Part shown: piece by piece, positions 5,663-53,406 of the stretch
Layout: each line of letters starts with the position of its first letter
Numbering within the stretch: the stretch's first letter is position 1
Origin: Skeletonema tropicum
Lineage: Eukaryota > Bacillariophyta > Thalassiosirophyceae > Thalassiosirales > Thalassiosiraceae
DNA: 64,000 nt
Assembly (NCBI GenBank): GCA_037178625.1
Contig: CM074137.1
Coordinates: 1,488,001 to 1,552,000 of the forward strand
Direction: 5' to 3'
The notes under the pieces: generated by a model
Told to the model about the DNA's origin: nothing
The model's database searches: none
The model's input: the letters and a program-made list of their open reading frames with translations, nothing else
Made by a program: the position numbers and the translations under genes

Positions 5663-6913
5663 TCATTTGTTTCTCTTAATGCGGATGCAGTCTATCTTGT
5701 GTCCAGCCTTCCAGTGTTGGACTTGACATTCCTTACCACAGTACCAAGCTCCTAAACACCGCACACATCGCTTGAATGAAGAGCATCCTGCCTCCTTCCT
5801 ACAGTTTGCGCAGCGACTCTTTTCATGCTCCTCTACCTTTGATATGGACTTGATCATAGCATCTTTCCATTCAATTGACAAATTTCCCTCCACCGCTCTG
5901 CGTCCCCAGAACAAAAACTTTGGGACTGGACTATGACCAGGAATGCCCATAATCCCTTCATAACGGAGACCTTCTAAGAGGTATAATGCAGTTGAAAAGT
6001 TGTAGACATGATAAGCGACTTCTAAGCTCTTTCCAGCGTAATGTTTCGGAAGGATGAAAGATTCTTTCAGACCACATTCAGCATGCCTAAACAAAGTTCC
6101 CAATGTACCACACGCTTTAGAATAGCCCTGACTTGCTGCGAGTGTGAGATAATGGAGGTACTTCTCTGTCTCATGATTCATATCGTAAATCAAAGCCAGA
6201 TTGTATTGTGCCGTCGGGAGTCCAAGATCTGCAGCCTTTTTCAAATAATGCACGTTGCTCGTTTCTTTATCACCATGCTCCGTCGACTTCAATAACAGCG
6301 CAGTAGGATCACCTTGATCTGCGGCTTGTTTGATCAATTCCCAACCCTTCTTTTTATCGAAAGAAATGCCGTACTGTTTACTATCCGCTTCATCCAGACA
6401 ACACAACCCAATCAGAGCTTGTGCCCATGCCTTACCCTTGTTCAAATGTTCGAACACCATGGCTCCGGCTTCCTTGCAATCGAAGAAAAATCTCTCCCGA
6501 CAAAGAGGGCATTTGTTCGAAAACATGCCATCAAATCCTTCTTTGTCACAGTTGGCACTTCGCTCTTCGGAGCACTGATTACATATCCAACCGCCGCAGC
6601 AGAAGAATCGATTTGTTGTCGTGCCATTCACGTGTTTGATTGTTTCAAGACATATGGGGCAATCCCCAGAGTTTTCAGGAGGATGCAGCTCGTCCTGAAG
6701 CTTTACAACAGCCTCCACCCGTTTAGATTCGAGTAGTAGCTCGAGCTGTTCTTCATTATCCGACAGCTCTTTGATTAGTTGTGCCCTTGACTTGGTCTCA
6801 GGCGACGTGAGACCAGTTTCCTCAACTATACTTTTCAGTGAGGGAAGTTCAGCAATTGCAGTCTTCTGGGATGCAATCTTCTCCCGCAGCTGCTGCTCCG
6901 TCTCGTCGGCCAT
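5663..6913 (-). CDS. RING / Sel1 / MYND protein, paralogue B
   Basis: Intact single exon of 416 residues. Residues 1-80 are charged and helical. Residues 85-139 form a RING-like cluster (CPICLE, CCGGWICNQC, KCPLCRE), suggesting E3 ligase or protein-binding function, although the spacing is not a classical C3HC4. Residues 150-270 carry Sel1-like repeats (GWELIKQAADQGDPTAL; YLKKAADLGLPTAQYNLALI). Residues about 368-409 form a C-terminal MYND finger (CANC, C-x2-C, YCGKECQ, HWKAGHKIDC). All parts are probably soluble. The start is the ATG in a CCACCATGG context shared with the paralogues. The family is unnamed, and its role is not inferable beyond protein interaction or ubiquitin transfer. Confidence 0.85.
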   Translation of the reverse strand: MADETEQQLREKIASQKTAIAELPSLKSIVEETGLTSPETKSRAQLIKELSDNEEQLELLLESKRVEAVVKLQDELHPPENSGDCPICLETIKHVNGTTTNRFFCCGGWICNQCSEERSANCDKEGFDGMFSNKCPLCRERFFFDCKEAGAMVFEHLNKGKAWAQALIGLCCLDEADSKQYGISFDKKKGWELIKQAADQGDPTALLLKSTEHGDKETSNVHYLKKAADLGLPTAQYNLALIYDMNHETEKYLHYLTLAASQGYSKACGTLGTLFRHAECGLKESFILPKHYAGKSLEVAYHVYNFSTALYLLEGLRYEGIMGIPGHSPVPKFLFWGRRAVEGNLSIEWKDAMIKSISKVEEHEKSRCANCRKEAGCSSFKRCVRCLGAWYCGKECQVQHWKAGHKIDCIRIKRNK

Positions 6914-7487
6914 GGTGGTAGACCAACAATGGATAGAAGATGTGATCTGATGTGATGCACCTATACAGCGTCAACACGGTTTATCACCTCACGCTCAGTA
7001 TTTTTTCTTTGATGCACATTTGTAGGCCACACTACTTTGATGACAGCAACAAAGAGGAGGAACCAATACTAAGTCAACAGCAGCTGCTCTAGAGTCTATA
7101 GAGTACAATAGAGAGAGAGAATGCTGTGTGCTGGGTGGCGCTGCTAGCTTGGTGCTTGGTGCCAGGAGTGCCAGGGCACATAAAAGAATCTCGATCATGA
7201 ATCATGAAAAGAAGCTCACTTATTAGTGTACTGTAAATTGTCAATCAAAGCAGGTTTTTATCTTTTTCAATTCTTCGTGACTCCACTATTTATCTTGACT
7301 CATATGACTTGAGTCACGAGCAAGAAATTTTGAGATTTTTCATTTTCATTTACGCATCTTTCTCACCTCAACCATCTCTACCATGACATGAGACATGAGA
7401 GCTCTTCGACAGAAAACAGAAAACTGAATCAAACCACCTTCACATATGCGAGCTCCAAGAGCGCTATCACTTTCGCTGTCACGTGCC
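6914..7487. other. Divergent promoter region of MYND paralogue B and the selenoprotein gene
   Basis: About 570 bp between two genes transcribed away from each other. Part of it (about 7215-7360, with the motif TTGAGTCACGAGC) resembles the region upstream of paralogue C at about 10010-10150. Promoter DNA was thus duplicated with the paralogue. TGAGTCA-like sites recall AP-1/bZIP half-sites, but nothing shows they are used. An in-frame ATG at 7446 could add 14 residues to the selenoprotein. Confidence 0.45.
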
Positions 7488-8292
7488 ATGTCGACTGCTC
7501 CGTCAACAACTATCATACCCATCGATGTCGTATCTGACACAGTTTGACCGTGGTGCTACATCGGGAAGCGACGCCTCGACTCGGCGTTAGCTGATGCCAA
7601 GGAACGATTTCCTCAACTTTCATTTGATGTGAGATGGAGACCGTTCGAGGTATGTACTTTATGTTTTATTTGACTCTATTGAGCACATCTTTAGTCGTCA
7701 CGTAGCACATTTTTTGCTCGATCCCAGCTCAACTCATGTTGCTTTTCTTTGGTTTACTTGACACTGTCGATTGTTATGTCCCCTTCTATAGCTCAATCCC
7801 AATCTTCCCGAAGGAAAGGGATATGATAAGATGAATTATTACGAGCAACGATTCGGTGCTGACATGGTACGAAGGATGATCCCACGAATGAAAGCTGTTG
7901 CAGCAGAGTACGGTATAAAAATGGAATATGGTGGTCATATTGGTAACACATTCAACAGCCATAGGTTGATTTGGAAAGCTCGCGAGGTAGGTGGCTCTGA
8001 TCTACAAGAGAAAGTAGTTGAGAGTTTGTTTAAGGCATACTTTGAGGAGAATAAATCTTTAGGCGAGCTAACAGTCCTGCAAGATTGTGCGAACAGGGCA
8101 GGATATAGTGATTCCTTTGAGTTTCTTTGCTCAGAGTTGGGTGAGCAAGAGGTCAAAGAGGAAATGAAGCAATTTGGCCGTGCTTTCCAGTGTACTGGAG
8201 TGCCTATGTTCATTATTAGTGATGGTAAATTTATATTGAATGGAGCTCAGGAGAGTGATCAATTCTTACGAGTGTTTGCAAAGTTGATTTAG
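7488..8292 (+). CDS. DsbA/FrnE-like thioredoxin-fold selenoprotein (UPWC active site)
   Basis: Two exons, 7488-7649 and 7792-8292, with a 142-bp GT-AG intron, give 220 residues. The first exon reads ... VSDTV-TGA-PWCYIGKRRL. FrnE/DsbA-like oxidoreductases have SDTVCPWCYIGKR here, so the TGA at 7545-7547 replaces the first catalytic cysteine (residue 20) and most likely encodes selenocysteine. The exon joint reads WRPFE|LNPNLPEG, which keeps family homology. Later landmarks are YYEQRFG, NTFNSHRLI, the helical insert and the cis-Pro loop CTGVPMFII. The protein is probably a redox or isomerase enzyme for thiol/disulfide exchange. An upstream in-frame ATG (7446) could supply a short presequence. 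The SECIS lies 57 bp past the stop. A gene finder would start this gene after the TGA and lose the active site. Confidence 0.9.
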
Positions 8293-8348
8293 TATGAGGG
8301 AGTAAGCAAGGTTTAAGGTTGACGTGATGGTGTGTTTTAGGCTATACT

Positions 8349-8439
8349 GGTAAAGGGAAGATTGAAATTGAATGACGAGTCGTTGAAGAAATTGAATGAT
8401 GCCTTCATCGACTCTGACAAATCGTTTGGTCCCTTTACC
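8349..8439 (+). promoter_or_regulatory. SECIS element (selenocysteine insertion signal)
   Basis: Hairpin in the 3' UTR of the DsbA-like gene. Basal helix: GGTAAAGGGA (8349-8358) pairs perfectly with TCCCTTTACC (8430-8439). After an internal loop comes the SECIS core ATGA (8372-8375) opposite TGA (8415-8417), the non-Watson-Crick quartet. The upper helix pairs 8377-8388 with 8403-8414 with one T-T mismatch in 12. The apical loop begins with AAA (8389-8391), supplying the conserved AA pair 13 nt after the quartet. All diagnostic parts and spacings of a eukaryotic SECIS are present. Confidence 0.9.
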
Positions 8440-8613
8440 CATTGTCACATGATTTTTCAATGCTGTAGAAGCACGGTCTCCGAAATAAAGCGAAGATTCT
8501 GAGCGCAATTAGAAATAAATACTTAGAGTATGGATGCATTGCAAACGGCATGCATTGTTATTTAGTAGTATCATTATCGTGCATGTATTGGAAGAAATGT
8601 ATCATTTGCATTG

Positions 8614-9861
8614 TCATTTGATTCTCTTGATGCAGTCTATCTTGTGTCCAGCCTTCCAGTGTTGGACTTGACATTCCTTTCCACAGTACCAAGCTCCTAA
8701 ACATCGCACGCATCGCTTGAATGAAGAGCATCCTGCCTCCTTCCTACAGTTTGCGCAGCGACTCTTTGCCTGTTCCTCTACCTTTGATATGCACTTGATC
8801 AAATAATCTTTCGCTTCCACTGGCAAATCTCCCTCTAACGCTTTGCGTCCCCAGAACAAAAACAATGGGGTAGGACTATGCCCAGGAATGCCCAGAACCT
8901 CTTCATAACGCTGACTTTCTAAGATGAATGATGCAAATGAAAAGATGGAGACGGCATGAGCGTCTTCTAAGCACATTCCAGCGTAGTGTTTCGCAAGGAT
9001 GTAAGATTCTTTCAGACCACATTCAGCACGCCTAAACAAAGTTCCCAAATGACCATACGATTTAAAAAAACCCTGACTTGCTGCGATTGTGAGATAATGG
9101 AGGTACTTCTCTTTCTCATTGTTTGTAATGTAAAATTTTATAGCCAGATTGTGTTGTGCCGGTGGGTATCCAAGATCTGCAGACCTTTTCAAACAATAAT
9201 ACATTTTGTTCCTTTCTCCATCACCATACTGCGTCGACATGAAAAACAACGCATCCGGGTCATCTTGATCTGCGGCTTGTTTGATCAATTCCCACCCCTT
9301 CTTTTTATCGAAAGAAAGGCCGAACTGTTTTCTATCCGCTTCATCCTGACACCACAACCCAATGAGAGCTTGTGCCCATGCCTTACCTTTGTTTGCATGC
9401 TTTAACACCATGGCTCCGTTTTCGTTGGCGGTGCAAAATTTCTCACGACAAAGTGGGCATTTGTCAGAAAACATGTGATCAAATCCTTCTTTATTTACGT
9501 TGGCTTCGCGCTCATCTACGCACTGCGTACACATCCAACCGCCGCAGCAAAAAAATCGACTTACTGTCAAGGAATTCACGTGTTTGATTGTTTCAAGACA
9601 CACGGGGCAATCTTCAGGATTTTCAGGAGGATGCAGCTCGTCCTGAAGACTGATAATAGCCTCCACCCGCCTAGATTCGAGTAGTAGCTCGAGTTGCTCT
9701 TCATTGTCTGACAGCTCTTTGATTTGTTGTGCCCTTGCCTTGGTCTCTGGCGACGTGAGACCTGTTTCATCAACTATACTTTTTAGTGAGGGAAGGTCAG
9801 CAATTGCAGCTTTCTGGGAAGTAATCTTCTCCCGCAGCTGCTGCTCCGTCTCATCGGCCAT
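8614..9861 (-). CDS. RING / Sel1 / MYND protein, paralogue C
   Basis: Intact 415-residue paralogue of B with the same order: charged N-terminus, RING-like cluster (CPVCLE, CCGGWMCTQC, KCPLCRE), Sel1-like repeats (GWELIKQAADQDDPDAL; CLKRSADLGYPPAQHNLAI) and a C-terminal MYND finger ending HKIDC. The start is the ATG at 9861, in the same GCCATGGCC context as B; the frame stays open 40 codons further upstream, but that part has no homology to B. Its middle region is closest to paralogue A (SFASFILESQRYEEVLGIPGHSP is shared). B and C are in the same orientation with the selenoprotein gene between them. Confidence 0.85.
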   Translation of the reverse strand: MADETEQQLREKITSQKAAIADLPSLKSIVDETGLTSPETKARAQQIKELSDNEEQLELLLESRRVEAIISLQDELHPPENPEDCPVCLETIKHVNSLTVSRFFCCGGWMCTQCVDEREANVNKEGFDHMFSDKCPLCREKFCTANENGAMVLKHANKGKAWAQALIGLWCQDEADRKQFGLSFDKKKGWELIKQAADQDDPDALFFMSTQYGDGERNKMYYCLKRSADLGYPPAQHNLAIKFYITNNEKEKYLHYLTIAASQGFFKSYGHLGTLFRRAECGLKESYILAKHYAGMCLEDAHAVSIFSFASFILESQRYEEVLGIPGHSPTPLFLFWGRKALEGDLPVEAKDYLIKCISKVEEQAKSRCANCRKEAGCSSFKRCVRCLGAWYCGKECQVQHWKAGHKIDCIKRIK

Positions 9862-10435
9862 GGCGGGTTGACAGTTGCACTGGTTGATACTTTTACGGTT
9901 TATTACAATACGGATTACGGCATAATGGCGCTCGCTGAAGTCTGAAGTCTGAAGTCTGAAGTTAGGACAGATTTGAAGCACCCTTGTTTGAAGCTACATA
10001 ATGTAGCGTAACTGTAAATGCATAAGTAGAGATTGTATTTCAATTAGATTTTTCTGTTTCAATTCACGACTCGATTCATATTCATACTTATCAGAGGTAG
10101 CCCTTGAGTCACGAGCTTGAACTTATTAGATTTCCATTTCATTTTATTTGGTTTTACGCATGCCTAATCACACTGACCTCAGCTCCCTCCTCCCTGTTAA
10201 AACCATGATGCTATTAGCTATGTTCGATAGGAGTACTATCTCCAATAACCTCCCGACCTCCACTAGCCTCCCCTACGCTTATTAGCACAATAAGTACTAT
10301 CTACTTAATAGGCAAGAGCCCGCAAGAGCATCGATCATCAGGCAACAGGCAACGAGCTGTCATATACAATTTCTAACATCAATCTAGTGCACAATAATTT
10401 CCAATTTGTTGTCAACCAATTAGCAAGCCTTCACA
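9862..10435. other. Divergent promoter between MYND paralogue C and the Med11-like gene
   Basis: About 570 bp. A 7-bp tandem repeat (CTGAAGT, four copies at about 9936-9962) lies just upstream of paralogue C. TTGAGTCACGAGC near 10104 repeats the element upstream of paralogue B. Nothing else is recognisable. Confidence 0.45.
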
Positions 10436-21499: not shown

Positions 21500-22013
21500 T
21501 GCTCATGCAGCTTTGCAAATATGTGTGTTGTGTTTTATGTGTCTGCAGCTCCTTCTCCGCGTAGCTGCCGTCCAATTGCTGTGTTGAAAGTAACAGGGTC
21601 CTATCTGCTCTGTCTCCCTCTCCTCCGCTGCCTCCTTTGTGAAGTGAAGACATGCAAAGGGCTTATGGGAAGTATGCCAATGCATGCTTGACATGACATG
21701 CATGGAAAGAAGCAGCTGCGGCTGCGTGAACGGTGATGAAAAAGGGATCTGCTCGCTTCAAGCGAATGCAAAATGCTAGCGTGGTGCGTGATTTTGTGGT
21801 TTTGTTCTTTTCGACTGTCCCTTTCCGGTGCTTCGCGCCATTTTAAAACTTCCAACCGACCCTCAGCCCTCCCTCATCCCTCATCGCTTCTCAGCAATAC
21901 ATAAACACAAAACACAACATAGAACCGGGCAGCAGCCTGGCAGCAGCTTTGTTGCGAGCACATGCATGTCATAGATCAAGCTAGCCACAGTGGACGTGAT
22001 ACCTTGACAATAT
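21500..22013. other. Divergent promoter between MGDG synthase and Nudix genes
   Basis: About 510 bp between divergent genes. It is rich in short GCATGCATG-type and CTGCAGC motifs. No RNA gene or repeat is recognised, and the open frames on both strands lack domain features. Confidence 0.4.
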
Positions 22014-52906: not shown

Positions 52907-53406
52907 NNNNNNNNNNNNNNNNNNNNNNNNNNNNNNNNNNNNNNNNNNNNNNNNNNNNNNNNNNNNNNNNNNNNNNNNNNNNNNNNNNNNNNNNNNNNNN
53001 NNNNNNNNNNNNNNNNNNNNNNNNNNNNNNNNNNNNNNNNNNNNNNNNNNNNNNNNNNNNNNNNNNNNNNNNNNNNNNNNNNNNNNNNNNNNNNNNNNNN
53101 NNNNNNNNNNNNNNNNNNNNNNNNNNNNNNNNNNNNNNNNNNNNNNNNNNNNNNNNNNNNNNNNNNNNNNNNNNNNNNNNNNNNNNNNNNNNNNNNNNNN
53201 NNNNNNNNNNNNNNNNNNNNNNNNNNNNNNNNNNNNNNNNNNNNNNNNNNNNNNNNNNNNNNNNNNNNNNNNNNNNNNNNNNNNNNNNNNNNNNNNNNNN
53301 NNNNNNNNNNNNNNNNNNNNNNNNNNNNNNNNNNNNNNNNNNNNNNNNNNNNNNNNNNNNNNNNNNNNNNNNNNNNNNNNNNNNNNNNNNNNNNNNNNNN
53401 NNNNNN
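52907..53406. other. Assembly gap, exactly 500 N
   Basis: A run of 500 unknown bases, a conventional scaffold-gap size. Any reading frame across it is artificial. To its right the sequence begins in the middle of NDUFV1. Confidence 0.98.

Follow-up and report, generated by a model that had tools for sequence, protein, structure and literature searches.

Publications already describe selenocysteine (Sec)-containing proteins of the DsbA/FrnE kind from algae, marine invertebrates and bacteria. In the parts of these reports available to us, DSBA is counted among the Sec families with the widest distribution in algae and diatoms are credited with 20 to 44 selenoprotein genes (PMC7539508), a Sec FrnE is described in Mamiellophyceae and in M. 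viride (PMC6627142), and Sec DsbA is recorded in Ciona and amphioxus and, earlier, in Micromonas (PMC2874816), in marine invertebrates (PMC3473315) and, as DsbA selenoprotein families, in marine metagenomes (PMC2398784). FrnE (DsbA) also figures as a selenoprotein family in a further list (PMC3965025). For Thalassiosira pseudonana, the available text on the 2007 list gives 16 selenoproteins, among them no DsbA by name and one unnamed thioredoxin-like protein (PMC2375036). The surmise of an initial annotation of the DNA studied here, that selenoprotein forms of the family may exist in other algae, is borne out by the accessible portions of two of these sources (PMC7539508; PMC6627142).

The gene treated here lies on the forward strand of a 64-kb stretch of the Skeletonema tropicum genome (hereafter the window, to which positions refer unless a contig or locus is named). 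Judged from its sequence, it is very probably a nuclear diatom gene for a FrnE-type DsbA thiol oxidoreductase, in which UGA is read as Sec by means of a SECIS element in the 3' UTR and falls within a UPWC active site. With the Sec-DsbA proteins of algae and marine invertebrates, as far as the texts available describe them, it shares the DsbA fold, a U that substitutes for the upstream CXXC cysteine and a 3' UTR SECIS, and it differs from them in being a diatom member. The literature on diatom selenoproteins and DSBA yielded the survey cited first (PMC7539508), and no separate description of this gene was found in its accessible text or in the other literature searched.

Gene structure and protein family

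The coding sequence is composed of two exons, at 7446–7649 (with 7446 as putative start) and 7792–8292, separated by a 142-nt intron (7650–7791, GTATGT...CTATAG). On translation, the first exon carries an in-frame TGA (7545–7547) where a CPWC motif has its first Cys, and this TGA is the proposed Sec codon; the second exon carries the remaining DSBA domain with a GVP motif of the cis-Pro type and ends in a TAG stop codon (8290–8292). Counted from ATG 7488, the segments 7488–7649 and 7792–8292 form one frame across the intron and encode 220 residues, so that the initial annotation was right in describing a TGA in an x-P-W-C frame within an otherwise intact two-exon gene. Its frame also stands, and its start at 7488 is the less likely of two: the in-frame ATG at 7446, which adds 14 residues, is probably the true start, since the N-termini of the relatives P0122, P0123 and P0126 are extended in a comparable way ahead of MST. 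At the exon junction the homologues P0001 and P0004 continue as FELNPNLP, and the W-bearing homologues P0122, P0123, P0125 and P0126 run into the intron, reading FEVC or FEVW. Without a Sec reading, the list of open reading frames holds only a 153-residue product starting at 7831, precisely the truncated protein that standard annotation had been expected to give. An AATAAA at 8484–8489, 3' of the hairpin described below, is a possible polyadenylation signal. The gene is flanked by two mutually similar genes on the reverse strand (5663–6913 and 8614–9981), which, from their look, may be of the MYND/SEL1 type.

The window protein matches Pfam DSBA (PF01323) at 2.3e-34, and by sequence its closest solved structures are the FrnE entries 5cnw and 5cp1 (E 4.4e-22 over residues 7–215), presumably from Deinococcus radiodurans. 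In this alignment, which the initial annotation had proposed as a check, the CPWC of FrnE falls on the x-P-W-C of the window protein, so that the TGA takes the place of the attacking Cys, the upstream one of the pair; the TGVP motifs are aligned too. In the numbering from ATG 7488, which is used throughout, UPWC occupies residues 20–23 and GVP residues 190–192, so that both the active site and the cis-Pro type motif are present by sequence. Besides sharing domain and motifs, the two proteins differ in that the bacterial FrnE has Cys where Sec is predicted here, and in that the Cys positions of the window protein (20, the TGA column, 23, 153, 167 and 188) include no pair corresponding to the C-terminal CXXXXC of FrnE. 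According to the available text of one report, this motif is found in many FrnE proteins and is not obligatory (PMC8945050). A search of NCBIfam assigned the window protein to no family, and a search of viral contigs returned no relative of it.

The SECIS-type hairpin

Downstream of the stop codon, at 8349–8439 (+), the transcript would fold into a SECIS-type hairpin, recognised by folding and by a SECIS-like rule of our own. It has a basal helix of 10 pairs (8349–8358/8430–8439), a core formed by ATGA (8372–8375, beginning 79 nt past the stop codon) and TGA (8415–8417), an upper helix (8377–8388/8403–8414) comprising 11 pairs and a single U-U mismatch, and an apical AAA (8389–8391) 13 nt after the ATGA. 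The basal helix, the core and the position of the AAA are as the initial annotation had them, and so is the mismatch in the upper helix, for which it had counted 12 pairs in place of 11 plus U-U. By the fold and our rule the ATGA/GA core, the two helices and the unpaired apical A's of a SECIS element are thus all found; in the minimum-energy fold the third apical A (8391) is paired within a small apical helix. The fold of a 101-nt segment gave z = –3.99, and none of 200 shuffled sequences was equally stable.

Under a loose version of the rule, in which hits were counted from a score of –15, the hairpin scored –29.2; 38 shuffled 64-kb strands gave 259 hits at –15 or better, one of them as low as –29.2. 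A second SECIS-like hairpin in the window (about 21638–21694, +; –29.5 by the loose rule) is tied to no gene here. A strict version requires a GAATGAC core together with TGA, and was framed after the window locus and other loci had been viewed, so that it is not fully independent of them. By this rule, one of the eight GAATGAC sites on both strands of the window has a hairpin, namely that of the gene, and 60 random 64-kb strands gave a hairpin at 12 of 346 sites, one at or below the score of the window hairpin. The chance rate of such a hairpin is low.

Rfam returned no SECIS for the window at the gathering threshold, and its model SECIS_1 (RF00031) gave no match in 8250–8550 up to E 10, nor anywhere in the genome or in any of 14 control genomes. 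Since the genome-wide blank extends to a genome with TGA-containing selenophosphate synthetase (SPS), GPx and SelM genes (see below), the model is not sensitive here, and with its controls equally blank the genome-wide search carries no information.

Selenocysteine machinery and a second DsbA gene

The genome (78.4 Mb in 125 contigs) points to an organism that decodes Sec. It contains five tRNA-Sec loci of 72.4 bits each, which ARAGORN calls SeC with anticodon TCA; three weaker tRNA-Sec matches are tRNA-Ser. Three of the five genes, with identical scores, stand in tandem within 0.6 kb (C10:980630–981205). SepSecS is present, and a match to eukaryotic PSTK is weak, reaching 48 bits where the cut-off is 382. 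Internal TGA codons occur in SPS (one), in two of four GPx matches and in all three Sep15/SelM matches, two of which may be alleles; among the other families searched, in-frame TGA was found in none of the matches to Rdx (one), AhpC-TSA_2 (five) and MsrA (eight, one of them with TAG). GAATGAC stands downstream at all seven other TGA-gene loci examined, and at six of these, SPS being the exception, it lies in a hairpin according to the strict rule; three of the SECIS candidates (those of the second DsbA and of two GPx genes) were chosen by eye and scanned afterwards. When the candidates of six of the seven loci (L029 being left out) were aligned with MAFFT, the 5' core aligned and the 3' arm did not, and for this reason no covariance model was built from them.

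One of these loci is a second DsbA gene, at about 1099761–1100604 of C10 (L005 1329–2172), with a SECIS candidate core at L005 2337 to about 2378. Its frame reads SDLA-TGA-CCG, an intron, and TGG TGC TAC, giving UPWC, with further in-frame ATGs upstream; its DSBA domain scores 4.5e-16, and its product shares 26% identity with the window protein. The GAATGAC hairpin downstream of it satisfies the strict rule and is only the second-best downstream hairpin, a different one having scored better. The two genes are alike in the TGA as first codon of UPWC, the DSBA domain and the downstream GAATGAC hairpin, and unlike in that an intron of the second immediately follows the UP codons and its product lacks Cys where the window protein has Cys153 and Cys188. 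Among the best 120 of its 209 homologues, the Sec column is empty in 118 and occupied by Cys in two, and the Skeletonema marinoi model P0143 skips the column.

Homologues at the Sec column

Among the best 120 of the 5201 homologues found for the window protein, six have Cys at the Sec column, two have W and 112 have no residue; 111 of the latter can be aligned only past the column, and in one, Cyclotella cryptica P0013, part is missing. Cys does therefore occur in homologues where the window gene has TGA, as is expected of a selenoprotein gene. None of the best 92 homologues has it (90 no residue, two W), the first Cys appearing at rank 93. When the query carried W at the site, 25 proteins were obtained among the matches listed, 20 of them new (six W, 14 Cys), so that the 140 homologues listed in all comprise eight with W, 20 with Cys and 112 with no residue. 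The W at this column would be the product of translating TGA by table 4. Sequence is conserved on both sides of the TGA, including SDTV-x-PWCYIGKRR. Close relatives from Skeletonema are P0003 for the window protein and P0143 and P0145 for the second DsbA; P0003, a model from Skeletonema menzelii, leaves out the active site, and P0123, with the same N-terminus, reads WPWC. Database models of the 153-residue type include P0007–P0009, and the best 92 contain transcript-derived models of relatives, such as P0008 (MMETSP; 153 residues).

A quick tree was computed from 49 chosen rows (20 of the 112 models with no residue, two of the eight W forms, 16 of the 20 Cys forms, nine out of 120 relatives of the second gene, plus both proteins from this genome), with SH-aLRT as the only support measure, no bootstrap, and a named outgroup that no single branch separates from the other rows. 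In this tree the window protein falls in a 23-row set (SH-aLRT 99) of truncated, W and UPWC rows only, with no Cys row, and the set of the second DsbA has two Cys forms.

Second copy of the gene and alternative readings

A second copy of the gene is found on contig C11, identical at 1500 of 1503 bases (99.8%) over a stretch that opens 290 nt ahead of ATG 7488 and extends past the hairpin. It retains the TGA, and its one difference within the hairpin, C8406T, lies opposite G8385 and turns a G-C pair into a G-U pair. The window contains a 500-N gap (52907–53406), beyond which the C11 sequence runs as the reverse complement of a large part of the window, the longest blocks being 96.9–99.7% identical to it; at about 7198, 290 nt before ATG 7488, the two copies diverge by about 1.5 kb, approximately the size of a neighbouring gene unit. 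The second copy is probably the other allele or haplotype, retained in scaffolding, and as such would provide a second, independent reading of this gene; an inverted segmental duplication is less likely, because the piece past the gap starts exactly where the 500-N run ends. A decayed fragment of the same gene is present at C8:894828–894959 (L006), with deletions, much of the gene gone and a SECIS that is recognisable but broken.

These copies bear on the readings that compete with Sec. It is very unlikely that the TGA works as a genuine stop or arose as a nonsense mutation, in which case the gene would be a pseudogene or yield nothing but the 153-residue product of ATG 7831, even though a plain ORF caller yields that product alone and databases hold models like it: the product would be without both active-site residues, the homologues are conserved on both flanks of the TGA, and frame and hairpin are intact in both copies, whereas the C8 fragment, which displays the look of a broken copy, is quite unlike the window gene. 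Almost no weight can be given to an error of sequencing or assembly at a codon that is truly TGC or TGT; the scaffold gap does mark the assembly as imperfect, but the copy past that gap also reads TGA, and the homologues have the same pattern of missing residue or W. That W, in eight of the 140 homologue models listed, could be taken to mean that TGA is read as tryptophan or as another ordinary residue, which is extremely unlikely, given that, among the 22 ORFs in the window with 250 codons or more, nine end in TGA (a mechanical count in which some are not genes), that the genome has dedicated Sec tRNAs with the TCA anticodon, and that W would abolish the nucleophile of a CPWC enzyme. The Sec reading is supported by the hairpin, the Sec machinery of the genome, its other TGA-containing selenoprotein genes, the TGA of the second copy and the lack of Cys in the 92 closest homologues. 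The earlier proposal that Sec stands in for the nucleophilic Cys of a disulfide oxidoreductase agrees with the hairpin, the Sec genes, the second-copy TGA and the homologue column.

Proposed function and extra cysteines

For the window gene we infer Sec insertion and enzyme activity as follows. The 3' UTR hairpin would act as a eukaryotic SECIS, SBP2 and EFSec would deliver tRNA-Sec to the ribosome, and UGA 7545–7547 would be decoded as Sec; in the finished protein the selenolate would be the attacking residue, with Cys23 as the resolving one. By analogy with work on bacterial FrnE, the enzyme may have a role in redox or oxidative-stress protein repair.

Among the matches listed, the 120 homologues on the Sec side, that is, those with no residue or W at the Sec column, include 111 with Cys153 and 77 with Cys188, which precedes the GVP proline by four residues. 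None of the 20 Cys-form relatives has either, one of them having no residue at the first position and two at the second. A tentative and rather doubtful idea is that the diatom UPWC FrnE line is an old clade in which Sec became fixed (no Cys form being present in the sampled rows), with added thiols of its own in Cys153 and Cys188, which might serve as a selenenylsulfide relay, restoring the selenol with no need of the C-terminal CXXXXC that bacterial FrnE has. The association of Sec with the two thiols is confounded, since the sets compared differ in ancestry and the Sec side is one clade; Cys153 and Cys188 may thus simply characterise the clade and not be partners of Sec. The second Sec-DsbA has neither thiol.

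The gene adds a well-supported selenoprotein to those of diatoms. For the DsbA/FrnE family, it means that public gene models lose the active site, as 90 of the 92 best homologues start past the Sec column or skip around it. The homologue sequences further suggest that the selenium dependence of the enzyme would be clade-wide and not a quirk of one genome, and the second gene suggests that one diatom would carry two distant Sec-DsbA lines.
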